Source: a virus
Reading direction: 5' to 3' (one strand)
Length of the DNA: 38,246 nt
Virus record (IMG/VR): IMGVR_UViG_3300010371_000071
Coordinates: 1-38,246 of that record
The notes beneath the pieces were generated by a model. It was not told the origin of the DNA, ran no database searches, and saw only the letters and a program-made list of their open reading frames with translations. The translations under genes and the position numbers were made by a program. Positions 9,520-35,265 of this stretch are shown one piece after another. Every line of letters begins with the position of its first letter. Within the stretch, counting starts at the first letter, position 1.

Positions 9520-10824
9520 ATGGCTGGCAATGCAATTGTTGAAGCGATCGAAAACGTCAACAAAGGCGTGCATGACCTGCGCGCCGACAACGACCGCTCG
9601 CTCGAAGAGCTGAAGAAGGGCAACGATGCCCGCTTCCGCGAACTGCAAGAGAAGTGCGACCGTCAAGAAGCGACGATCACGGATCTCATCAAGACCCGCA
9701 ACGACATCGAGCGCAAGAAGCAGCTCATGGAAGAGCGCATCGACATCCTCGAAGCCATCGCGAATCGTCCGAAAGGCGACATCGTCAAGAAGATGGTCGA
9801 CGAAGATCTGCATCACTTCGACAAGTGGGTGCGTTCGGGCTTCAAGGACGTGGACGCCAAGGCGGCCCGCGACAAGCTGAAGGCGAAGGAACTTGAGCTC
9901 AAAGTCGACACCGTCACCGCCGGCACCGCGCTTCTCGGTGGCAACGCTGTTCCGAAGGTGATCAGCGATCAGATCGAGCGCCTGGTTCTCAAGACCTCTG
10001 GCGTCGTCGACGCGGTCGGCATGAAGACTGTCGGCACTTCCGACTATCACCGTGTCGTCACGATCTCCGGCCAGTCTGGCTCCTGGGCCGCGGAACTCGG
10101 TTCCCGCTCGCAGGGCAACGCGCCGAATACGCGCGACATCAAGCCGACGCAGGGCGAGCTCTACTCGTTCCTGTACGCGACGAAAGAATCCATGATGGAC
10201 ATGGCTTTCGACGTGCAGAGTTGGCTGATCAACGACGTGGCCGAGTGCCAGGCCGTGCAGCTCGCGACCGCGATCTATAACGGCAACGGTACCGGCAAGC
10301 CGACTGGCATGACGAACACCGCGCCTGTTGCGACCGCGGACTATGCGTCCCCGATGCGCGCCGCTGCGGCGTATGAGTTCGTCTCGCACAACGGCGTTGA
10401 CACCTCCTCGCCGAACAAGCTCACCCTCGACATCCTGCAGGCGGCTATCTCGAAGCTCGCTCCTGGATATCGCGACGGCAGCAAGTTCGCGATGAGCTCT
10501 GTCACGCAGGGCATCGCGCGTCGTCTCAAGGACACCACGAACCAGTACCTCTGGCAGCCGTCCGTTCAGGCCGGTCAGCCCGATGTGCTGTTTGGCTACC
10601 CGGTGTTCACGTGGGAAGACCTTGCGTCGGGCAATACGGTTGACGGCCTCGTTGCCGCGTTCGGCAACTGGTCGCGCTCCTACGAGCTTGTGGCCCGTGG
10701 ACCGCTCGAAATCGTGGTCGATAACCTCACCACGATCGGCACGACGAAGTTCTGGGTGTCCCGCCGGTTCGGCGGCATCCCCTGCAACAACGACGCGCTG
10801 AAGTTCGTGAAGAACGCTGACTAA
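9520..10824 (+). CDS. Major capsid protein (HK97 fold) with N-terminal delta domain
   Basis: The 434-residue protein starts with a long charged coiled coil (about residues 10-95, with EELKKGNDARFRELQEK), the delta/scaffold domain expected to be cut off by the prohead protease, probably around residues 110-135. The HK97 fold follows: VPKVISDQIERLV, GSWAAELGSRSQG, ESMMDMAFDVQSWL, and a C-terminal FGYPVFTWEDL...GTTKFWVSRRFGG typical of the P-domain/E-loop family. A GGAGAAG ribosome site with 6-base spacing suggests strong translation. It is flanked by terminators. Confidence 0.95.
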   Translation: MAGNAIVEAIENVNKGVHDLRADNDRSLEELKKGNDARFRELQEKCDRQEATITDLIKTRNDIERKKQLMEERIDILEAIANRPKGDIVKKMVDEDLHHFDKWVRSGFKDVDAKAARDKLKAKELELKVDTVTAGTALLGGNAVPKVISDQIERLVLKTSGVVDAVGMKTVGTSDYHRVVTISGQSGSWAAELGSRSQGNAPNTRDIKPTQGELYSFLYATKESMMDMAFDVQSWLINDVAECQAVQLATAIYNGNGTGKPTGMTNTAPVATADYASPMRAAAAYEFVSHNGVDTSSPNKLTLDILQAAISKLAPGYRDGSKFAMSSVTQGIARRLKDTTNQYLWQPSVQAGQPDVLFGYPVFTWEDLASGNTVDGLVAAFGNWSRSYELVARGPLEIVVDNLTTIGTTKFWVSRRFGGIPCNNDALKFVKNAD

Positions 10825-10833
10825 TAGTGGCGA

Positions 10834-10873
10834 AAAAGAAGCGGCGGGTTCGCAAGAGCCCGCCGCGCTCTTT
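10834..10873 (+). terminator. Terminator downstream of the capsid gene
   Basis: A GC-rich stem (GCGGCGGG at 10841-10848 with CCCGCCGC at 10859-10866) is extended outward by AAAGAA/CTCTTT with one bulged base. It has A-rich 5' and T-rich 3' flanks, so it could act in both directions, but the T-tract is short. Confidence 0.6.
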
Positions 10874-10902: not shown

Positions 10903-11607
10903 GTGGTTTCGCCCCGGAAAATAAGTCGCTGCTGGGAAGGTGAACCATGTGTCGTCGCGGCGTCAGGTCCGTCATTAACGGCAGACGTAGCGCATCGTGT
11001 GCGCATGGCGCGATGGACGGGCGGGTGGCGTGTGCTGTGCGTGAACGACGCATACCGTCTACTGCCACGCGCAGACGCTTTGTATGCGTGCGACTGGAGC
11101 TGGTGGAGATACCACCAGGGAGCGAAAAGTTTTGATGGCGAGCGCTGGACGAGTCACAGCGAAAGTACCTCGTTGATTGATGACAAGTCGCAAGTAGCTC
11201 ACGAGTTCGACGTCAACCTGGTGCGCGCAGTGGATGCCGCGGGGTTCTCATCGGATCAGTCTTTCATCCACTACGGACGGCCGCAGGCGTCGAGTGGGTT
11301 TCAGGCCGTGAACTTGGCGCTTCTCATGGGCGCATCGAAAGTTGTGCTCATCGGTTTTGACGGCCATGCAAAGAATGGCAAGCATTTTTTCGGTAACCAC
11401 CCTGAGCACCTCGACAGGTGTGGCGATGAGGGTTACCGGGATCTGGCCCGCGCGTTTGTCGCGGATGACCGGATCGTGAACGCGACACCTGGTAGTTCCA
11501 TCGAGGTTTACGAGCGTGTCGATCTCGAGGAAGTTCTCAGGGACGGTAGTGTGCATCGGCACCGGCCCGTCGCTGACGCAGGAGCAGATCAATGCCGCAC
11601 AGCGTAA
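10903..11607 (+). CDS. GPSL-motif glycosyltransferase-like protein A
   Basis: The 234-residue protein has a Rossmann-like start CVVAASGPSLT (residues 16-26), VNDAYRL (48-54), a WSWW segment, then SSGFQAVNLALLMG (130-143) and KVVLIGFD (146-153). These elements match the DUF115/MptE-like and GT42 sialyltransferase-like architecture (GxGPSL near the N-terminus, SG..A...A...G...I.L.G.D later). The enzyme would bind a nucleotide or nucleotide-sugar; the acceptor is unknown. GTG 10903 has AAGG close upstream and no later start keeps the GPSL motif. Its last 92 bases overlap the next gene. It is the first gene of the capsid-adjacent cassette. Confidence 0.75.
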   Translation: MVSPRKISRCWEGEPCVVAASGPSLTADVAHRVRMARWTGGWRVLCVNDAYRLLPRADALYACDWSWWRYHQGAKSFDGERWTSHSESTSLIDDKSQVAHEFDVNLVRAVDAAGFSSDQSFIHYGRPQASSGFQAVNLALLMGASKVVLIGFDGHAKNGKHFFGNHPEHLDRCGDEGYRDLARAFVADDRIVNATPGSSIEVYERVDLEEVLRDGSVHRHRPVADAGADQCRTA

Positions 11608-12154
11608 GGGATTCGCTCTTGCGGGATGCAACAACGTCTGGCGCCTGTGCGGTTTGGATATCCACTACGCCTGCAACGAAGGGTGGTGGGACGAATACTG
11701 GTGTGACGAGCTCAAGCAGTACGCTGCCGAGAAGTGGACCTGCAATCTGGACGCCGCAAAGCGATACGGACTTAACTGGATCGCAGAGAAAAACGCGCCT
11801 GGATTGTCCGCTGATCCTTCCGTAATCCACCACGGACACGGCAGCGGTTACACGCTGCTGAATCTGGTCTATCTCATGGGCGCGACGCGTATCGTGCTCT
11901 TGGGCTACGACATGAAATACGCACCGGACTACGACGGCAGAACGCAGCAGATCGGGTCTACGCCGCGTCACTACTTCGGCGAGTACCCAGCAAGGTTGCA
12001 GCACTGGCCCAAGGTTCATGTGCGCAATGGTGTGCACGTCGAGTTGTTAGACCTTTACCGCAGCGTTGCGCGACAAGGGTTGGTTGAGATCATTAACGCG
12101 ACGCCGGATTCCGCTCTCGATTGTTTTCCGAAGGTGCCAATCAGTGCTCTCTGA
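11516..12154 (+). CDS. GPSL-motif glycosyltransferase-like protein B
   Basis: The 212-residue paralogue of the previous gene has VVCIGTGPSLT (residues 11-21), CNNVWRL (38-44), NEGWWDEYW, then a GSGYTLLNLVYLMG segment and RIVLLGYDM. After that come an H-rich loop (RHYFGEYP) and an INATPDSALDCFP end, a motif also near the end of protein A (VNATPGSSIEVYE). The shared layout indicates a tandem duplication followed by divergence. A nucleotide-sugar-dependent transfer is likely by family; substrate unknown. The GTG start at 11516 lies inside the upstream gene, and the stop overlaps the methyltransferase gene by 11 bases. Confidence 0.75.
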   Translation: MSISRKFSGTVVCIGTGPSLTQEQINAAQRKGFALAGCNNVWRLCGLDIHYACNEGWWDEYWCDELKQYAAEKWTCNLDAAKRYGLNWIAEKNAPGLSADPSVIHHGHGSGYTLLNLVYLMGATRIVLLGYDMKYAPDYDGRTQQIGSTPRHYFGEYPARLQHWPKVHVRNGVHVELLDLYRSVARQGLVEIINATPDSALDCFPKVPISAL

Positions 12155-12692
12155 TCGCGAAATGTACGAGCGCATGGCTAACGGCTGGCGCATGGGGATG
12201 TCTGACGGCACGGTCTGCGGCAATGGTTCCACGATGGCCAATACCGCGAATGTTCGCGACTGGCTACCGCAGATCGTCGAGACGTACAACATCGCATCGA
12301 TCAACGATGCCGGTGCTGGTGACCTTCACTGGATCAAAAAGGTTCAGTGGGGCCGGCCGATTGCTTACCGTGCGTTCGATCTGATACCGCGCCTGCCATC
12401 GGTGACCGCGCTCGATATCACGCGCGACGTCATGCCGGCGTGTGACGCAATCCTGTGTCGGATGGTGCTCAACCATCTCGACGAGGAACGGATCGTTATG
12501 GCGCTCGAGCGTTTTCGGCTCTCGGCGCGCTACTTGATCGCCACGCAGTTCGACGGGGAAAACCTACCAAAGCGGTCTCCTCAATTCACCCGGCTCGATC
12601 TGCGTGGCGCTCCTTATTTCCTTGGTGATCCGTTGGGCTCGGTGCAAGACGCTGTAGAGAGCGCGTGCACGTTAGCCATCTGGAAGCTGTGA
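12144..12692 (+). CDS. SAM-dependent methyltransferase (class I, putative)
   Basis: The 182-residue protein has a SAM-binding signature INDAGAGDLHWIKK (residues 53-66), an acidic end of strand 2 (AFDLIPR, Asp79), and CDAILCRMVLNHLDEERIVMAL (100-121), which matches motif IV/post-motif IV of small-molecule and glycan methyltransferases. The start is GTG 12144 with AAGG upstream; the earlier frame lies in protein B. No DNA-specific target domain is present, so a DNA methylase is less likely. In this cassette it may cap or decorate a sugar, which is inference. Confidence 0.7.
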   Translation: MLSDREMYERMANGWRMGMSDGTVCGNGSTMANTANVRDWLPQIVETYNIASINDAGAGDLHWIKKVQWGRPIAYRAFDLIPRLPSVTALDITRDVMPACDAILCRMVLNHLDEERIVMALERFRLSARYLIATQFDGENLPKRSPQFTRLDLRGAPYFLGDPLGSVQDAVESACTLAIWKL

Positions 12693-13369
12693 TGGTCAAT
12701 GTCGTTTGCGTGAAGTGGGGCAAGCGGTATAGCGCGCACTGGGTGCTGCGCTTGAAGGCGATGGTAGAGAAGCACCTGAGCTTCACCCACCGCTTTGTCT
12801 GCCTGACTGACGATCCAGTGCCTGGTGTTGAGTGCATTCCGTTCGCCACGGATCTCGTCGGCTGGTGGGCGAAGATCGAGCTGTTCCGGCCGGACCTGTT
12901 TACTGGCTCAACGCTTTACTTTGATCTGGACGTAGTGCTTACGGCGTCAGTCGACGGCATCGTATTGCAGGCCGCGTCGGATCCGTCGCGCCTGTGGATG
13001 CGCGATGACTTCTCGTACTCGCTCGTGAAGCCGCGCACCGACTTGGATCCGTCTGCGCGCAGACTGCTCGGCGGTCCCGGTTGCTGCAATAGCTCGGTTA
13101 TGGCGTGGCACGGCGACAACGTCCGCATCATTTGGGATGCGTTTGACCGCAAGGTCATGGACGAGATGCACGGCGATCAGAACTATATCTCTCGCCTGCT
13201 GTATCCCGACAAGCTGGGGTTTCTGGAAAACGCGTTCGTGGATTCGTACAAGTATCGGATCCGCGCTGGACGTCCGATGGCGCCGGTCATGGTGTTCCAC
13301 GGGAGTCCGAAGATGGACGAGCTGCCGCGTGGTGACTCGCTACGGGCGATTTGGGAAGCCGCGGCCTAG
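12692..13369 (+). CDS. DXD-type glycosyltransferase
   Basis: The 225-residue GT-A-like protein starts with VNVVCVKWGKRYSAHWVLRL, continues with HRFVCLTDD (residues 33-41), then WWAKIELFRPDLF and STLYFDLDVVL, where the DLD at 78-80 is the metal/nucleotide-sugar motif. MHGDQNYISRLL and a late VFHG complete a pattern common in GT8-like and related small glycosyltransferases of phages and capsule loci. The ATG overlaps the methyltransferase stop (TGATG). Acceptor and donor are not predictable from sequence. Confidence 0.8.
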   Translation: MVNVVCVKWGKRYSAHWVLRLKAMVEKHLSFTHRFVCLTDDPVPGVECIPFATDLVGWWAKIELFRPDLFTGSTLYFDLDVVLTASVDGIVLQAASDPSRLWMRDDFSYSLVKPRTDLDPSARRLLGGPGCCNSSVMAWHGDNVRIIWDAFDRKVMDEMHGDQNYISRLLYPDKLGFLENAFVDSYKYRIRAGRPMAPVMVFHGSPKMDELPRGDSLRAIWEAAA

Positions 13370-13948
13370 GTGCTGGCAGATCGACTGCGCACGGCGTCTC
13401 TCATAGAGGACCCGTGGCCTCATCTTGAGTTGCCGCAGTTCCTGGATGATGAAGACGCGCGCGAGATCGCGAGCAAATGGCCGACGACTGGCTTTAGCTG
13501 GCTGCGTCACTCGGACGTCGCACAGCCTGACGGCACGTCGCTGCGCAAGATTCAGCACCTGAGTGCGCTGTTCCCGGAGATCGACGCGCGGATCCGTAGT
13601 GATGCGGTTAAAGACGAGTTCAGCGATGCGCTTGAAGTAGACGGCAAGCTGTACCCGATCTGCCTGTTGGTTGAAGACCTGCCTGGATACAAGATCCGCA
13701 GGCACACCGACTGCGCGGGGAAGGTGATCACTTCCCAGGTCTATCTGGCTGACGACGAATCAGCGCACGACCGCGGAGTGGTCCTGCAGACGCTTGACGG
13801 AAAGAACTGGAAACGGATCCCGTACTCGTTCAACCACGGCTACGCGTTCAAGGTGACGCGCTGCTCGTGGCATCGAGTTGCGGCCTCTAGCGGTGTTCGG
13901 AAGTCGCTGCAGCTCATCTATTACGACACGCCGACCCCGAAGCTGTGA
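13370..13948 (+). CDS. Fe(II)/2-oxoglutarate-dependent oxygenase-like protein
   Basis: The 192-residue protein contains the double-stranded beta-helix signature: HTD at residues 112-114 (HxD iron ligands), a distal His168 in CSWHRV, and Arg177 in GVRKSLQLIYY for 2-oxoglutarate. Around them are YKIRRHTD, SQVYLADDE and YAFKVTRCSWHRV, all typical of the family. It probably hydroxylates an amino-acid side chain or a sugar. It begins at GTG directly after the glycosyltransferase stop. The next gene begins in a GTGA overlap, so the genes are translationally coupled. Confidence 0.8.
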   Translation: MLADRLRTASLIEDPWPHLELPQFLDDEDAREIASKWPTTGFSWLRHSDVAQPDGTSLRKIQHLSALFPEIDARIRSDAVKDEFSDALEVDGKLYPICLLVEDLPGYKIRRHTDCAGKVITSQVYLADDESAHDRGVVLQTLDGKNWKRIPYSFNHGYAFKVTRCSWHRVAASSGVRKSLQLIYYDTPTPKL

Positions 13949-14658
13949 AGGTAACGATTCACGCGACACCGTCGATCGCGTGGCAGGTTAGGCGTGGTGC
14001 CTTCTTCGCAGAAGGCTTGAAGGCTGTTGGCGTTGATGTCGAGATCACTAGCGACAGGTTCCGGCACGATGGGTTCCCCATCCTGCTCGGCACTACGTTC
14101 TGGAAGCCGATCGAGAATGACGGCGGGGAATTCCTGCTAGTCGATCGCTGCTCGTTTGGCGATACAGACAAGTTTGTCCAGCTCGTGAGGAACGGTCATG
14201 GCCGGCGTGGTGACCATCGTGTTGCGCGTCCGGATGACGCTTCGAGATGGGAAGCCATGGGCGTGGATCTGGTGCCGTGGCGGGAAGGTAATTCATCTGT
14301 CGTCTTGTGCGGCCAGATCGAAACATTCTCTCCGTACTTCGCGACGCCGGACGATTGGTATCAAGTCTCCGCAGAACATGCGACGCACTTCCGTCCTCAT
14401 CCCGCTGGTTTAAATCCAACTCGACTTCCGACGCTACTTAGCTTCGATGGCGTGGGGCGAGTGCTGACTTTGAATTCATCGATCGGCGTCAAATGCGTGC
14501 TCGATGGGATCGTGACTGAGTGCGATGACGAGGGCGCCATGGCGTTCTCCGTGAGCGGCAAGCAATGCGACCGCCTCCCCTGGTGCCACTGGCTCGCCTG
14601 GACGCAGTGGTCGGATGACGAAATACGCGAAGGAGTTCCGTGGGCCTATCTGTTGTAA
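13945..14658 (+). CDS. Putative polysaccharide-type glycosyltransferase (GT-B-like)
   Basis: The 237-residue protein has LLGTTFWKP near residue 48, SSVVLCGQIE (about 118-127), then THFRPHPAG (146-154), VLTLNSSIGVKCVLDGIVTECDDEGAMAF at 173-201, and a C-terminal WLAWTQWSDDEI. The RPHP element followed by a serine-rich LNSS..V...L.G...V stretch resembles the nucleotide-sugar side of capsule/CDP-glycerol transferases. The first half is unusually short for a full GT-B enzyme, so activity is uncertain. It ends 19 bases inside the connector gene. Confidence 0.6.
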   Translation: MKVTIHATPSIAWQVRRGAFFAEGLKAVGVDVEITSDRFRHDGFPILLGTTFWKPIENDGGEFLLVDRCSFGDTDKFVQLVRNGHGRRGDHRVARPDDASRWEAMGVDLVPWREGNSSVVLCGQIETFSPYFATPDDWYQVSAEHATHFRPHPAGLNPTRLPTLLSFDGVGRVLTLNSSIGVKCVLDGIVTECDDEGAMAFSVSGKQCDRLPWCHWLAWTQWSDDEIREGVPWAYLL

Positions 14659-15248
14659 CGGCTGCGACGCAAGAGCCTATCTCGATTGCCGAGATGCGCG
14701 ATCACTTGCGCATCACGTCGACTGAAGAAGATGGCCTGCTCGCGGCCTACATTCTCGCGGCTCGCGATTGGGTCGAGAACGAGACAAAGACTCGTCTCGT
14801 CACGCAGACGCTGGACTACACGATCGACTATTGCTGGCCGCACCACGTCTCTGGCTACTACTGCAACGCTCGTATCGAGCTTCCGGTTCGACCCGTTGCC
14901 AGCGTCACCTCGATTACCTACGTAGACGGCAATGGCGCCACGCAGACCCTGAACTCGTCGCAGTACGTGTTTCACGCCGATGCCGCGGCTCCTTACATAG
15001 ACGCGGCTTATGGCGTCACGTGGCCCACGGTTCGCGCGCAGAGCGCCGCCATTACGGTCCGCTTCGTTGCTGGCTGGGCCGCGCCTGATGTGCCGCACTC
15101 GTTGCTGCAGGCGATCCGGTTCCTGACCGCGCACCTGTACGCAACGCGCGAGGCGGTGACTACCGCCAACGGCGCGCAGCAGATTACGGAAGTACCGCTT
15201 GCGCTTGAGGCAATGATCTCCTCGCACCGCTACTCGAGATTCGTGTGA
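14640..15248 (+). CDS. Head-tail connector (gp6/phiE125 gp8-like)
   Basis: The 202-residue protein shows the family pattern: PISIAEMRDHLRITSTEEDGLLAAYILAARDWVEN (residues about 13-47), LPVRPVASVTSITYVDGNG in the middle, and AGWAAPDVPHSLLQAIRFLTAHLYATRE near the end. It docks under the portal as the adaptor ring. GTG 14640 lies in the preceding gene's coding end, an overlap of 19 bases. Its position after the glycan cassette marks the return to normal HK97-like gene order. Confidence 0.85.
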   Translation: MGLSVVTAATQEPISIAEMRDHLRITSTEEDGLLAAYILAARDWVENETKTRLVTQTLDYTIDYCWPHHVSGYYCNARIELPVRPVASVTSITYVDGNGATQTLNSSQYVFHADAAAPYIDAAYGVTWPTVRAQSAAITVRFVAGWAAPDVPHSLLQAIRFLTAHLYATREAVTTANGAQQITEVPLALEAMISSHRYSRFV

Positions 15249-30266: not shown

Positions 30267-30382
30267 AGCCCTACGCACTCCTTATATAAGTGGTGCTGCA
30301 TTATAGCCGTATGTGACGAAAACAGCTTGTTTTCTAGCGTTTTCATCGCGTCTTGTCCAAAAGACTTTTGGACTGTCCAAAA
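30165..30382. repeat. Cluster of GTCCAAAA motifs (possible attP arm/core sites)
   Basis: TTGTCCAAAA or a 9- to 10-base variant occurs at 30353-30362 and 30373-30382; its exact reverse complement TTTTGGACAA is at 30229-30238, and GTCCAAAAG again at 30165-30173. At 30355-30373 two copies form a perfect palindrome GTCCAAAAG-A-CTTTTGGAC. They cover the 3' end of integrase and the endonuclease gene. Clustered direct/inverted repeats near an integrase are typical of attP arm or core sites, but no att core is proven. Confidence 0.45.
30300..30305 (-). promoter_or_regulatory. -10 element for the minus-strand endonuclease gene
   Basis: A perfect TATAAT on the minus strand (30305-30300) lies 22 bases before the AAGGAG ribosome site of the endonuclease gene. 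The -35 is weak (no TTGACA-like hexamer at 16-18 bases), so it is a partial promoter call. Confidence 0.4.
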
Positions 30383-31332
30383 CTCGGACCCTCAGCAACC
30401 GTAGCATCTCGATCACGCAGATACCGATCGGTCTGGATCACGTTGGTGTGGCCAAGTAGGGCGGTGGCGTTCTGCCCCTGTCGCTTCGCCCACGTCGCGG
30501 ACATCGCGCGTAGATCATGCAGGTGCGCGTCAGTGACATTGGCGCGTTCGCACGCCAGGTCCCATTGCTGGCGCACCGTGCGGTAGTCCGGCGTTTTGCC
30601 TCTGCGGTTGTGTAGCAGCGTCAGTGCGCGGATATTGGCGTGCAGCCCCTTTGCTCGATCGACCACTTCACGAATCTCGCTGTTCCACGCTATGACGACC
30701 TTGGCGCCGGTCTTCTGCTGGCGGAACTGGATTCCCTCGGGCAGCAGATCAGCCCGCCTGATAGCCAATACGTCGCCTACGCGTTGTCCGGTGCGTAGCA
30801 GCAGATCGATGATGACGCGAAGCCTTGGGCCGGCTTGCTGGTAGATCGCCGCGAGTTCTTCGTACGTCACCAGCCGATCGCGCTTCGCTTCTTTGTGGCG
30901 CCTGATCCCAACGCACGGGTTGGCAGTGACGTAGATCCCTAGGGCATACTCGAAGACGTTCCGTAGCAGCGACAGGCAGCGATTCGCCATGTTCGGCGTG
31001 GCGCCCATGTCCTGCATCATTCGCTTCACGTCAGCTTGCGTGACTTCCTCTGGCTGGTACTCAGCGAACACCTTCGCGAGCTTCCTAGCCGCAATCTCAT
31101 ACTGCTTGGCGGTGGTGGGCTTCACCTTGGCCAGTATCGACGGCAGCGCCTTTGCAATGAGCGCAGGCACCGTGCCTTCCTGCGCCTCGTAAAGGCCGGC
31201 GTAGCGGTTCAGCGCTTCTTTTAGCGTCTTGCCCAGCCGCGTCCACTTCCCGCCCTTCACGAAATAGTAAGCGCCATGGCGGAGATACACGTTCCGTGGC
31301 AGGTGCTTGTCGTGAATGCGTGGCCGATTCAT
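30343..31332 (-). CDS. int: Tyrosine-recombinase integrase
   Basis: The 329-residue protein has an N-terminal arm-binding-like segment (residues 1-45, RNVYLRHGAYYFVKGGKWTRLG), a core-binding domain (about 55-145) and a catalytic domain with Arg184, Lys207 (QQKTG), HDLR (His272, Arg275), LGHTN (His295) and Tyr304 (TDRYL). All standard residues are present, so it should be active in integration and, with an accessory protein, excision. It begins 8 bases after the DUF4224 gene stop, on the minus strand. Confidence 0.93.
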   Translation of the reverse strand: MNRPRIHDKHLPRNVYLRHGAYYFVKGGKWTRLGKTLKEALNRYAGLYEAQEGTVPALIAKALPSILAKVKPTTAKQYEIAARKLAKVFAEYQPEEVTQADVKRMMQDMGATPNMANRCLSLLRNVFEYALGIYVTANPCVGIRRHKEAKRDRLVTYEELAAIYQQAGPRLRVIIDLLLRTGQRVGDVLAIRRADLLPEGIQFRQQKTGAKVVIAWNSEIREVVDRAKGLHANIRALTLLHNRRGKTPDYRTVRQQWDLACERANVTDAHLHDLRAMSATWAKRQGQNATALLGHTNVIQTDRYLRDRDATVAEGPSFGQSKSLLDKTR

Positions 31333-32096: not shown

Positions 32097-32482
32097 GGTT
32101 GCCTCCCTCGTCGCGAGAATTCGCCCTCGCGCTCGGCGGCGGGCTCTGCTGCTAACGCACGCCAGTTCGGCCCATGCTTCGCAACGAAACAGCGCGCCTC
32201 CCATATGGCCGCGATGAATCGACGCCAGCGTCCGAGTGCAATCTGAGAGCCGCCAGCGCCCATGTTCTCGGTCTCGTACAGCGCCTCCTTCTCGAAGTAG
32301 GCGACGGAGTCGTCGAGGTCGGCGAGCAACTTGGAAACGTCGGCCTGCTCTGCTGCTGGAGCGCGGGCGGTGCAGTCAGCGTTGGGAGGTTTCTCCACTG
32401 ATGGGATGCCGATGACTTGATCGCAGTACGGGCATGCCATGTGCCCGGCTTCGTCTATCGCGCCAACGTTGATGCGGCTCAT
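32093..32482 (-). CDS. Hypothetical early protein with CPYC motif
   Basis: The 129-residue protein starts MSRINVGAIDEAGHMACPYCDQVIG (ATG 32482 in an ATGA overlap) and has a helical acidic middle (DVSKLLADLDDSVAYFEKEAL) and a basic C-terminus. A single CPYC gives half a zinc site. No family recognised. Confidence 0.6.
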   Translation of the reverse strand: MSRINVGAIDEAGHMACPYCDQVIGIPSVEKPPNADCTARAPAAEQADVSKLLADLDDSVAYFEKEALYETENMGAGGSQIALGRWRRFIAAIWEARCFVAKHGPNWRALAAEPAAEREGEFSRRGRQP

Positions 32483-33159
32483 TTCACTGTCACTCCGGTT
32501 CCATTGCACTTGTCGCAGTAGTCGATTACGACGTTACCTGTGCCGTCGCAGCGCTCGCACTTCCCCTGCGTCTGTGGCGTCTGGGCCGGCGGGGTGGCAT
32601 GGCGGGAGAGATCGGCAAGCTCGTCGATGACGTGGCGCAACCTGTCTTCCAGTTTCGATGCCAGTTCGCACTTCGCTTGGTCGAGTCCGGCATATGGCGG
32701 GATGACAACATCGCTCCATGCGCTGCACGCTTCCCGGCGAAGCTGGTGGGCGCGTTCACGTAGAGACTGGTCGAGCAGAACGTCGCGCGGTTTGTCCGCC
32801 TCTTTGCGCTCCGTGGAGGAGAGGGTCGCCTCCATATAACCCAGCGCTTCCAGCAGCACCTGATCGTTTGGCACATTGCCACTGACGATGCCGTCGATGA
32901 TGTCGCGCGCGGTGCTGAGTTGCCCCCGCATCTCGGCGAGCTGCTGTTCGTGCTCTGCGTACGCAACCTCGAACGGCAAGAGTCTGTCCCGCTCCCGCTG
33001 TAGCTCGGCAAGCTGCTGGCGGAGGGCGGCAATTGCCGCGTCGTGCTCCGAAGCCAGGACGATCCAGGTACGCGGAGCGATCCCGACAGGAGGGTCACCG
33101 AGAATGTCGGTGCGGTATCGCTTCACCTCGCTCACCGCGCCTGCGGGGTCGGTACTCAT
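32479..33159 (-). CDS. Coiled-coil protein with DnaJ-like zinc repeats
   Basis: The 226-residue protein starts with a VKRY-containing segment (residues 12-15), then a long coiled coil (AIAALRQQLAELQRERDRLL onward) and a C-terminal CERCDGTGNV...CDKCNGTGV, two CxxCxGxG motifs like those of DnaJ. The zinc element may bind a partner or nucleic acid. The protein shares the VKRY start with two smaller proteins downstream of the operon's start. Its function is unknown. Confidence 0.7.
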   Translation of the reverse strand: MSTDPAGAVSEVKRYRTDILGDPPVGIAPRTWIVLASEHDAAIAALRQQLAELQRERDRLLPFEVAYAEHEQQLAEMRGQLSTARDIIDGIVSGNVPNDQVLLEALGYMEATLSSTERKEADKPRDVLLDQSLRERAHQLRREACSAWSDVVIPPYAGLDQAKCELASKLEDRLRHVIDELADLSRHATPPAQTPQTQGKCERCDGTGNVVIDYCDKCNGTGVTVK

Positions 33160-33916: not shown

Positions 33917-34318
33917 TCAAAACGGGCAAGGATCATTGAAGTCCTCGTCCACTGCCGGCGCCGTCCCTCTCGACTTCTCCGCCAGCGTCTGCGGCGGGTC
34001 TTGATCGCGCCTCTCGCCGCCGCCCTGGAGCGTGATCCGCTGGACGTTGCAGGTCAGTTCAGCCTTCGGCGTGCCGTCCTTCGCCGCGTACGCGCGAACG
34101 TCGATGTCGCCGCTGACGGCTACCTTCGTGCCGCTGGTGAGGTACTGCTCGAGCTTCTGGCCGCGAGCGCCCCAAAGAGCGCACCCGACCCAAAGCGTCG
34201 ATTTCTTCTCGCCGAAGCCGGTGTTCACGGCGAGTGAGAAGTTGGTCACCGTGGTGTCGCCCACGGTCTTGGTTGATGCGTCGCGGCCGATGTTGCCTGC
34301 GAGGGTTCCGGTGTTCAT
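33917..34318 (-). CDS. ssb: Single-stranded DNA-binding protein
   Basis: The 133-residue protein has an OB fold: MNTGTLAGNIGRDA (residues 1-14), TTVTNFSLAVNTGFGEKKSTLWVGCALWG (28-56), a TSGTKVAVSGDIDVRAYAAKDGTP segment (67-90). The Gln/Arg linker leads to an acidic tip DEDFNDPCPF, a variant of the canonical DDDIPF partner-binding end. The start 34318 overlaps the Sak4-like gene (ATGA). It partners with the recombinase upstream. Confidence 0.9.
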   Translation of the reverse strand: MNTGTLAGNIGRDASTKTVGDTTVTNFSLAVNTGFGEKKSTLWVGCALWGARGQKLEQYLTSGTKVAVSGDIDVRAYAAKDGTPKAELTCNVQRITLQGGGERRDQDPPQTLAEKSRGTAPAVDEDFNDPCPF

Positions 34319-35265
34319 GCTGCTTTTTCCTGCTTTTTGATTGCGTCGAGATACTTCTTGATAGCCGCCCGCGACGATGCCGGGATGAGTTTCCAAACCT
34401 CCCCGTATTCGTCGATGCCGAACTCTCGAAGCTCGTTGTGGACCGCCATGACGGCAGCGCCGACTGCGGCTTCGTGCTCCTCCTCGGTCGTGCCGAGATC
34501 GCCAGGCGGGTTCAGCGCCTGCGCAAAACGCAGGGAGATATCCTCCCGCCGCTTCGCGATCACGTCAGCCTCAGCGCGCGGCGCTTCGACTCCGTTCTCC
34601 AGCCACGCCAGCAACCGCTTGCCGGTGTCGGCAGACAGGTGTGCTGGGTTCGCGAACAACTGCGTGCGGTCCTTCGTCGCGATGGCGAGATGCGAGCTGT
34701 GATCGATCTCCCACACCACGGAGAATTCGTACTCGACGCTCGCGCGCTGCTCGATCTTCATGCCGACCTTGCGGACCTTCTTGTCCTCGCCCTGTACGGT
34801 CTCGGTCTTGCTCCTGGCCGTCGCGATCACGTGCATGTTGCACTGGAGCATGGCATCGATGAACGCGCGGTGGCGGGGCGTGCTATCGCTCCACGCCGAC
34901 CACGTATTGCCTCGGTACTTAGCCTGGGCTAACTGCTCGTTGATTTCGAGGACGCCACCGGCTCCGTCCCACTCGTGGGTGATGGAGTCGATGATGAGGT
35001 TTTGGTAGCCGGCAGCCTCTGCCGCTTGGATCGCCTCAATAAAGCGCTCTGGCGAATACGGCGGACCGAGATCCAGCGCGTCGAAGTCGAAGCGGTCACT
35101 GTAGTGACTCGCGCTCGCCCTCTCGGTGTCGATCACGGCGGTTCGCCCACCGAGCCCACTCGCGATACTCAGCGCTCCCTGCGTCTTCCCGCCACCCGCT
35201 GGGCTCGCGATCAGCACGCGTAGCTTTACACGCTTGCGTGTTGCTTTCTGAAATTGCATTGACAT
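34315..35265 (-). CDS. Sak4-like RecA-fold recombination ATPase
   Basis: The 316-residue protein has Walker A IASPAGGGKTQ (residues about 19-29), a GGRTAVIDTERA, a Walker B NLIIDSITH (about 88-96) and a KVGMKIEQRASVEYEFSVVWEID segment typical of the AAA_24/Sak4 family. Sak4 proteins are single-strand annealing or RecA-like recombinases that depend on SSB; the ssb gene follows directly. A gap-free start at ATG 35265 has GAGGAG upstream, and a stop codon lies in frame before it. Confidence 0.85.
   Translation of the reverse strand: MSMQFQKATRKRVKLRVLIASPAGGGKTQGALSIASGLGGRTAVIDTERASASHYSDRFDFDALDLGPPYSPERFIEAIQAAEAAGYQNLIIDSITHEWDGAGGVLEINEQLAQAKYRGNTWSAWSDSTPRHRAFIDAMLQCNMHVIATARSKTETVQGEDKKVRKVGMKIEQRASVEYEFSVVWEIDHSSHLAIATKDRTQLFANPAHLSADTGKRLLAWLENGVEAPRAEADVIAKRREDISLRFAQALNPPGDLGTTEEEHEAAVGAAVMAVHNELREFGIDEYGEVWKLIPASSRAAIKKYLDAIKKQEKAA

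Follow-up and report, generated by a model that had tools for sequence, protein, structure and literature searches.

A co-directional block of six putative glycan-synthesis genes between the capsid and connector genes of a temperate phage

The head operon of a temperate phage carries six genes, placed between those for its HK97-type capsid protein and its gp6-like connector, whose predicted products point to the assembly of a glycan. We propose that this block is a late-transcribed, soluble and cytoplasmic glycan-synthesis module that most likely has a protein of the phage particle as its acceptor, with the capsid protein as first candidate and another head or neck protein as second, and we hold this reading with moderate confidence. 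Glycan synthesis is well supported by the predicted gene content, because variant blocks add genes for a sugar-nucleotide epimerase (2e-38), a GT8 enzyme (5e-15), a pyruvyl transferase and methyltransferases, some of the Methyltransf_24 type. A virion acceptor is suggested by the location of the block, its linkage to one capsid lineage, its solubility and the analogy with Maf enzymes; the late position does not in itself prove action on the virion.

The window is the whole stretch of DNA that was analysed, the 38,246 nucleotides of IMG/VR record IMGVR_UViG_3300010371_000071. A first-pass annotation had described positions 10903-14658 as a six-gene cassette inside the head operon with all genes in the late direction, and this description holds: there are six co-directional plus-strand ORFs, with capsid and connector borders identified by Pfam.

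9520..10824, plus strand: major capsid protein (HK97 type), candidate acceptor; Pfam Phage_capsid, E 3e-44; the cassette adjoins related capsid genes
10843..10868, plus strand: perfect 11-bp G+C-rich hairpin with a GCAA loop, found by folding, about 19 nt 3' of the capsid stop and upstream of the cassette
10903..11607, plus strand: ORF1, GPSL-motif glycosyltransferase-like protein, predicted Maf/GT42-like fold family; phrog_4603, 3.6e-30 over residues 20-213; relatives D3 orf7 and P1 PmgO
11516..12154, plus strand: ORF2, second GPSL-motif protein; phrog_4603, 4.9e-23 over residues 14-210; structural match to Maf and Cst-I
12144..12692 (likely; longest ORF from 12066), plus strand: ORF3, class I methyltransferase; phrog_3382, 1e-22
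12692..13369 (likely; longest ORF from 12665), plus strand: ORF4, DXD glycosyltransferase, GT8-like; phrog_1962, 1e-19; homologue of P1 PmgQ
13370..13948, plus strand: ORF5, Fe(II)/2-oxoglutarate oxygenase; PF13640 in five of five homologues
13945..14658, plus strand: ORF6, glycosyltransferase-like, similar to retaining beta-Kdo transferases except for substitution of the catalytic Asp; Foldseek, PDB profile and motifs
14640..15248, plus strand: head-tail connector (Ad1, gp6-like), downstream border; Pfam Phage_connect_1, 4e-13, and phrog_442, 1e-29

The translational overlap noted earlier is also present, and with longest-ORF starts the cassette neighbours overlap by 92, 89, 28 and 4 nt and otherwise abut. 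Since homologues begin at equivalent sites, ORF3 probably starts at GTG 12144 and ORF4 at ATG 12692, and two of the overlaps are therefore shorter. None of the cassette proteins has a membrane segment (the highest 19-residue mean hydropathy is 1.57). An integrase gene is present, and the phage is temperate.

All six genes occur in identical order in two further contigs, with protein identities of 44-76%, and the block is thus not a chance assortment. The proposed check for co-occurrence near capsid genes elsewhere was run, and the families do recur together: of 38 distinct ORF6 clusters, 34 have head or tail genes no more than 6 kb away and 31 lie directly upstream of a connector-region gene. 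Next to the capsid gene, no part of the block is as constant as the GPSL genes, and their presence there follows capsid identity, with a GPSL gene in 16/16 contigs at 43% identity or above (the contigs of this capsid lineage with enough sequence), in 12/17 at 37-42% and in 0/34 below 37%. This linkage may reflect shared descent. The first-pass interpretation of the cassette, in which a virion protein or a sugar is modified, stands as regards glycan enzymes in the head operon, their co-occurrence, the late direction and the lack of membrane segments; its premise that this slot normally holds nothing or a tiny gene was wrong, as D3-like phages have a GPSL gene there and so does every one of those 16 contigs. 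No single acceptor sequence is implied, because unrelated head modules also accompany the block (at loci L009, L104 and L111) or GPSL genes (in D3 and PAJU2). Against our reading, comparison of the capsids revealed no Ser/Thr-rich loop or insertion that marks the cassette-bearing ones, only lineage differences.

ORF1 and ORF2, described from the outset as paired GPSL glycosyltransferase-like proteins, both match phrog_4603, which carries the label 'alpha-2,3-sialyltransferase', and structural prediction places them in the sialyltransferase fold family of Maf and CstII. The predicted ORF2 model (pLDDT 91.7) aligns with Maf 5mu5 at Z 14.6 over 178 residues and with Cst-I at Z 11.7 over 185 residues, the range for Cst-I and Cst-II being 11.7-10.4 and unrelated structures scoring at most 4.9; the best PDB profile match of ORF2 is CstII (E 0.0035). 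The common fold extends across nearly the whole GPSL protein, although identity to Maf and GT42 enzymes is only about 15% and the putative GPSL enzyme is a single domain of about 210 aa, compared with 632 aa for Maf. Maf enzymes transfer nonulosonic acids onto Ser/Thr of flagellin, and Kdo instead if the native donor is absent (PMC11339370), and they act before export (PMC4065374).

ORF6 matched no named family among the Pfam and phrog profiles. As regards a modified GT-B fold, the top five Foldseek matches of its model (pLDDT 64) are all KrkA/WbbB (E 1.5e-4 to 1.5e-3), and its best PDB profile match is WbbB (E 0.026); a VIA Z of 7.8 for the same model is level with common folds, and KpsC is weakly placed in the structural alignment (Z 6.5). 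With the retaining beta-Kdo transferases WbbB (GT99), KrkA and KpsC (GT107) it shares the HP and NSS motifs and an acidic residue in DR/ER, the HP lying in a near-invariant FRPHP (H152-P153) that aligns with the HP of WbbB. However, the nucleophile Asp, four residues after a conserved Gln (D232 in WbbB), is missing and is F128 in ORF6, so that Q-V-E-D-D232 of WbbB corresponds to Q-I-E-T-F in the clade of the window's ORF6. Tyr, Phe or Trp occupies this position nearly throughout that clade, and Asp is found in distant relatives only, which keep QVxxD. The diverged active site offers a test case for the interconversion of retaining and inverting CMP-sugar transferases.

This resemblance to LPS and capsule Kdo transferases bears on a different reading, in which the block alters LPS or capsule on the host cell, either late in infection or during lysogeny, giving superinfection exclusion or keeping released particles off debris. 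As surface sugars, Kdo and sialic acids are consistent with such a role, and so is the temperate character of the phage, but the block encodes neither a membrane protein nor a flippase nor a lipid-linked sugar transferase, and its position is fixed in the late head operon rather than where lysogenic-conversion genes lie. It differs likewise from seroconversion (gtr-type) cassettes in having neither a membrane flippase nor membrane glycosyltransferases, no hydrophobic segment being present. The O-antigen-conversion genes of D3 are separate and lie elsewhere in its genome, which also counts against this explanation, and we consider it unlikely.

A second alternative makes the GPSL proteins part of the virion, whether or not they are also active as enzymes, with the glycan reading as secondary. 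The PAJU2 record is in keeping with this, and with our main reading too, as its GPSL protein ORF010 is among four ORFs labelled 'structural protein' without 'putative', alongside the capsid and the major tail protein, and so is the constancy of GPSL genes next to the capsid gene. Against it, the GPS motif is invariant and His and Asn positions are conserved, as fits an enzyme, the proteins have a sugar-transferase fold, and sugar enzymes are encoded alongside; we regard this possibility as improbable. We give very little credence to the GPSL proteins being pterin or nucleotide enzymes like archaeal MptE in a block that makes a small molecule, since the Pfam MptE-like (PF01973) matches that favour it reach only 19.9 and 20.6 bits for ORF1 and ORF2 (curated cut-off 34.6), the top Foldseek match of the GPSL model, M. 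jannaschii HPPK, falls in full structural alignment to Z 10.8, behind Maf (14.6) and Cst-I/II (11.7), and the neighbours are glycosyltransferases, with a sugar epimerase in variants.

The remaining assignments of the first-pass annotation, a class I methyltransferase, a DXD glycosyltransferase and an Fe/2OG oxygenase, are borne out by profile matches. In the ORF4 family Y85-x-D87-L-D89 and D171-Q are invariant, and the best PDB profile matches of ORF4 are to GT8/glycogenin (E 0.025). ORF5 scores 3.4e-4 (21.9 bits, under the curated cut-off of 27) against Pfam 2OG-FeII_Oxy_3 (PF13640), the best E among its five homologues being 1.8e-5, and its HxD...H metal triad and distal Arg (H112, D114, H168, R177) are invariant across all five; its best PDB profile match is a putative hydroxylase (E 0.033). 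The oxygenase gene is a rare accessory, present in just 5/38 ORF6 clusters. We therefore rejected the oxygenase as a general part of the cassettes; being optional, it cannot be their general first step, and it may be a tailoring step in those few phages that carry one.

Some phage base-hypermodification systems likewise combine an oxygenase with glycosyltransferases, and one could suppose that the substrates here are phage DNA bases, worked on by oxygenase, glycosyltransferases and methyltransferase alike. Such DNA modification had been disfavoured from the start and we find it scarcely credible, as in Pfam the five ORF5-type oxygenases match 2OG-FeII_Oxy_3 alone with no Tet_JBP domain, ORF3 matches no base-modifying methyltransferase family in Pfam or phrog profiles, the oxygenase is mostly absent while other cassette genes persist, variants carry a sugar epimerase, GT8 and pyruvyl transferase, and the genes lie 3' of the capsid gene.

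For glycan synthesis on a virion protein, we infer an acceptor, sugars, an order of steps and a benefit as follows. A Maf-like GPSL protein would begin by linking a CMP-activated sugar to Ser/Thr of a freshly synthesised virion protein, either ahead of particle assembly or in its course; chain extension would then fall to the other GPSL protein together with the GT8-like and Kdo-transferase-like enzymes, and the methyltransferase would cap the chain. Where the Fe/2OG oxygenase is present, as in this subclade, it would hydroxylate the acceptor residue or a sugar, and the benefit could be shielding of the particle or changed adsorption. The fully specified version, in which the capsid or another head protein is hydroxylated by the phage oxygenase and then receives a methylated glycan, made from CMP-activated ulosonic acids by paired Maf-like enzymes and a Kdo-transferase descendant with a remodelled active site, would amount to virion glycosylation that depends on hydroxylation and is encoded within the head operon; as a whole it is doubtful.

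To our knowledge, virion glycosylation has so far been proven in a few mycobacteriophages only. Che8 and Corndog themselves encode the enzymes that glycosylate their capsid and tail proteins (PMC12363180); for virion glycosylation by Che8, Corndog and Myrna, PMC12363180 and PMC11256854 cite Freeman et al. 2023. The block shares with these three phages the encoding of glycosyltransferases and the virion as proposed target, and Che8 gp108 has a methyltransferase domain of the TylF/Methyltransf_24 type, some variant blocks encoding Methyltransf_24 enzymes. However, the Che8 glycosyltransferases are of GT2 and GT25 types and gp108-110 match none of our six family models (GT2, TylF and GT25 instead), and their genes are found close to the 3' end of the genome rather than in the head operon; in Che8 the glycan itself has been measured.

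A reduced set occurs in P1, where PmgO-PmgP-Ppp-PmgQ comprises GPSL proteins in tandem and, after them, an ORF4-type glycosyltransferase. Homologues of ORF3, ORF5 and ORF6 were not found within that set, which lies outside the capsid operon rather than between capsid and connector and is named merely 'putative morphogenetic'; this location and the dispensability of PmgO, PmgP and PmgQ weigh against our reading. In D3 and PAJU2 the GPSL gene adjoins connector genes, with a further uncharacterised gene and an annotated methyltransferase gene slightly downstream; they differ in having a single GPSL gene and split positions, and homologues of ORF4, ORF5 and ORF6 were not found there. If our reading is correct, virion glycosylation would be modular and widespread among tailed phages rather than a mycobacteriophage peculiarity, with a reduced form in P1, under that 'putative morphogenetic' label, and in D3, both of them much used in laboratories, and it would bear on how antibodies, hosts and surfaces see phage particles. 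As P1 carries PmgO-PmgP-PmgQ, laboratory tests are possible now, and the question is directly testable given that PmgO, PmgP and PmgQ are known to be non-essential (PMC10695390).

Within the open-licence literature searched there was no prior description of the six-gene block, and no DNA-level relative of this phage was present among 50,697 phage records. Host assignment via the phylum of L134 (a Planctomycetota MAG) gave no result, with 2/392 genomes matched, one of them that MAG, and neighbours that do not resemble phage genes. Between 9000 and 15600 we found no promoter-like sites, and terminator-like sites at chance level only. The hairpin at 10843..10868 was rejected as a cassette-specific regulator and belongs to the capsid gene: stems of at least 9 bp lie 3' of about 80% of related capsid genes, whether or not these have a cassette, as compared with 0-12% of other genes.

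The six-gene cassette of the window (ORF1 to ORF6) occupies 10903-14658 as the first-pass annotation had it, with all six genes on the + strand; an HK97-type capsid gene precedes it and a gp6-like connector gene follows. Neighbouring ORFs overlap or abut, and comparison with homologues places the starts of ORF3 (12144) and ORF4 (12692) downstream of the first possible codon; no strong overall contrast in G+C was seen between the block and its flanks. The six families recur together beside capsid genes in two other loci (L004, which is one contig with L088 and L138, and L005), where all six genes lie in the same order in the capsid-to-connector interval, and four more (L002, L003, L006, L007) carry parts of the block. 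A profile search with ORF6 recovered 48 viral contigs, which collapse at 95% identity into 38 clusters; in 34 of these the ORF6 relative has a head or tail gene no more than 6 kb away, and in 31 a connector-region gene directly downstream. General closeness to virion genes is expected because the collection consists of viral contigs, but the constancy of the position is not. Genes for the glycosyltransferase-like GPSL proteins (ORF1/ORF2 type) are present in 20 clusters, ORF4 in 25, ORF3 in 13 and ORF5 in five. All these cluster counts, those of head, tail and connector-region genes included, are lower bounds since many contigs are short. Accessory genes in the cassette slot of variants encode a nucleotide-sugar epimerase, a GT8 enzyme, a pyruvyl transferase and several methyltransferases.

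In a reverse search from the capsid (contigs not dereplicated), every one of the 16 contigs with at least 43% capsid identity and enough sequence has a GPSL gene after its capsid gene, against 12/17 at 37-42% and 0/34 at lower identity. The same enzymes accompany different head modules in L009, L104 and L111, where the block sits between the head-tail connector Ad1 and Hc1; GPSL genes occur with other head modules in D3 and PAJU2, and the capsid-to-Hc1 interval of Tetraselmis virus S20 encodes two GPSL proteins with several glycosyltransferases and methyltransferases. The block is therefore modular: its place is the head operon, and it moves between capsid types. The L009, L104 and L111 blocks lack the oxygenase, and between portal and Ad1-glycan block these loci encode a collagen-like protein (L009 4292-5281, Pfam Collagen 1e-24; homologues L104 3642-4631 and L111 2525-3496).

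Both ORF1 and ORF2 match phrog_4603, labelled alpha-2,3-sialyltransferase. GPS, W58, H152, G155 and N194 are invariant in an alignment of 20 GPSL proteins, whose top PDB profile match is the sialyltransferase CstII. Structural alignment of the confident ORF2 model (pLDDT 91.7) groups the predicted fold with Maf, a glycosyltransferase of flagellin (Z 14.6), CstI/CstII (11.7 to 10.4), MptE-type HPPK (10.8), SteA (10.6) and human sialyltransferases (9.5), before a drop to 4.9. ORF3 and ORF4 match phage methyltransferase and glycosyltransferase families, respectively; ORF4 retains Y-x-D-L-D and GDQ motifs, and its top PDB matches, all weak, are GT8 enzymes and glycogenin. All five ORF5 homologues match 2OG-FeII_Oxy_3, with H112, D114, H168 and R177 invariant.

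ORF6 matched no named family in any library searched. The best five Foldseek matches of its low-confidence model (pLDDT 64) are KrkA and WbbB only, all retaining beta-Kdo transferases, and independently WbbB is the top PDB sequence-profile match (E 0.026, covering the HP and NSS motifs). The modelled fold is thus likely that of these transferases, short of proof because the KrkA alignment (Z 7.8 across 193 residues) is equalled by common folds. The WbbB nucleophile is Asp232, within QVEDD (PMC9587256), and distant ORF6 relatives retain QVxxDxS at the WbbB spacing. In the window clade this position is Y, F or W almost throughout (Q-I-E-T-F-S-P in the window), the HP histidine is retained and DRC stands in place of the ERG motif; because the nucleophile is lost, we do not place ORF6 among the retaining Kdo transferases. 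Relatives of ORF6 also occur in contigs from Planctomycetota MAGs or genomes (L133, L134, L137), where the neighbouring genes do not appear phage-like; in L137 the relative adjoins a methyltransferase-like ORF.

That this class of block synthesises a glycan is close to certain. We infer that the acceptor is most plausibly a head protein of the phage, which the soluble block enzymes would decorate, because enzymes of Maf-like kind are encoded among head-assembly genes. Maf enzymes offer the best working analogy for the mechanism: they attach nonulosonic acids to flagellin Ser/Thr, one of them also accepting CMP-Kdo in E. coli (PMC11339370), and act before export (PMC4065374); methylation of flagellins is known as well (PMC9290775). 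The suggestion that the oxygenase hydroxylates the acceptor as the initiating step does not hold in general, since ORF5 is too rare (5/38 ORF6 clusters, a lower bound); its target could be a protein residue or a sugar.

Virion glycosylation is known in mycobacteriophages (PMC12363180, PMC11256854), although the enzymes are unrelated to the six here and the Che8 genes lie elsewhere in the genome rather than in the head operon. No description of the present block was found in the searchable literature. By its probable mode of action the block is a candidate virion-glycosylation system. In the PAJU2 depositors' record, 'structural protein' without 'putative' is given only to ORF003 (capsid), ORF010 (the GPSL protein; L221, AP009624, 7780-8349), ORF015 (major tail) and ORF023, which suggests, short of proof, that a GPSL protein was detected in particles. 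Most neighbours of ORF010 are labelled differently. In P1, PmgO is a GPSL protein and PmgQ an ORF4 homologue; beside PmgO, PmgP (L216 3638-4264) is a second GPSL/MptE-like protein (GSGPS motif; Pfam MptE-like 3.4e-4), a character absent from the annotation of the P1 record. All three are encoded in a single run of genes that includes Ppp, a phosphatase, and a CRISPRi survey found each of them non-essential (PMC10695390).

Other features of the window are:
10843-10868, + strand, hairpin with a perfect G+C-rich stem and tetraloop, just 3' of the capsid stop
30343-31332, - strand, integrase
32479-33159, - strand, early region, DnaJ central (zinc-finger) domain protein, match below cut-off
34315-35265, - strand, early region, AAA_24 protein

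The integrase suggests that the phage is temperate. Of related capsid genes, 78-81% are followed by a stem of 9 bp or longer, whether the cassette is present or absent, compared with 0-12% of other head, tail and cassette genes and 0.5-2.3% for shuffled capsid 3' regions. The stem is kept while its sequence diverges widely, and the hairpin probably either stops part of the transcription or stabilises the mRNA, raising capsid output over that of downstream genes.
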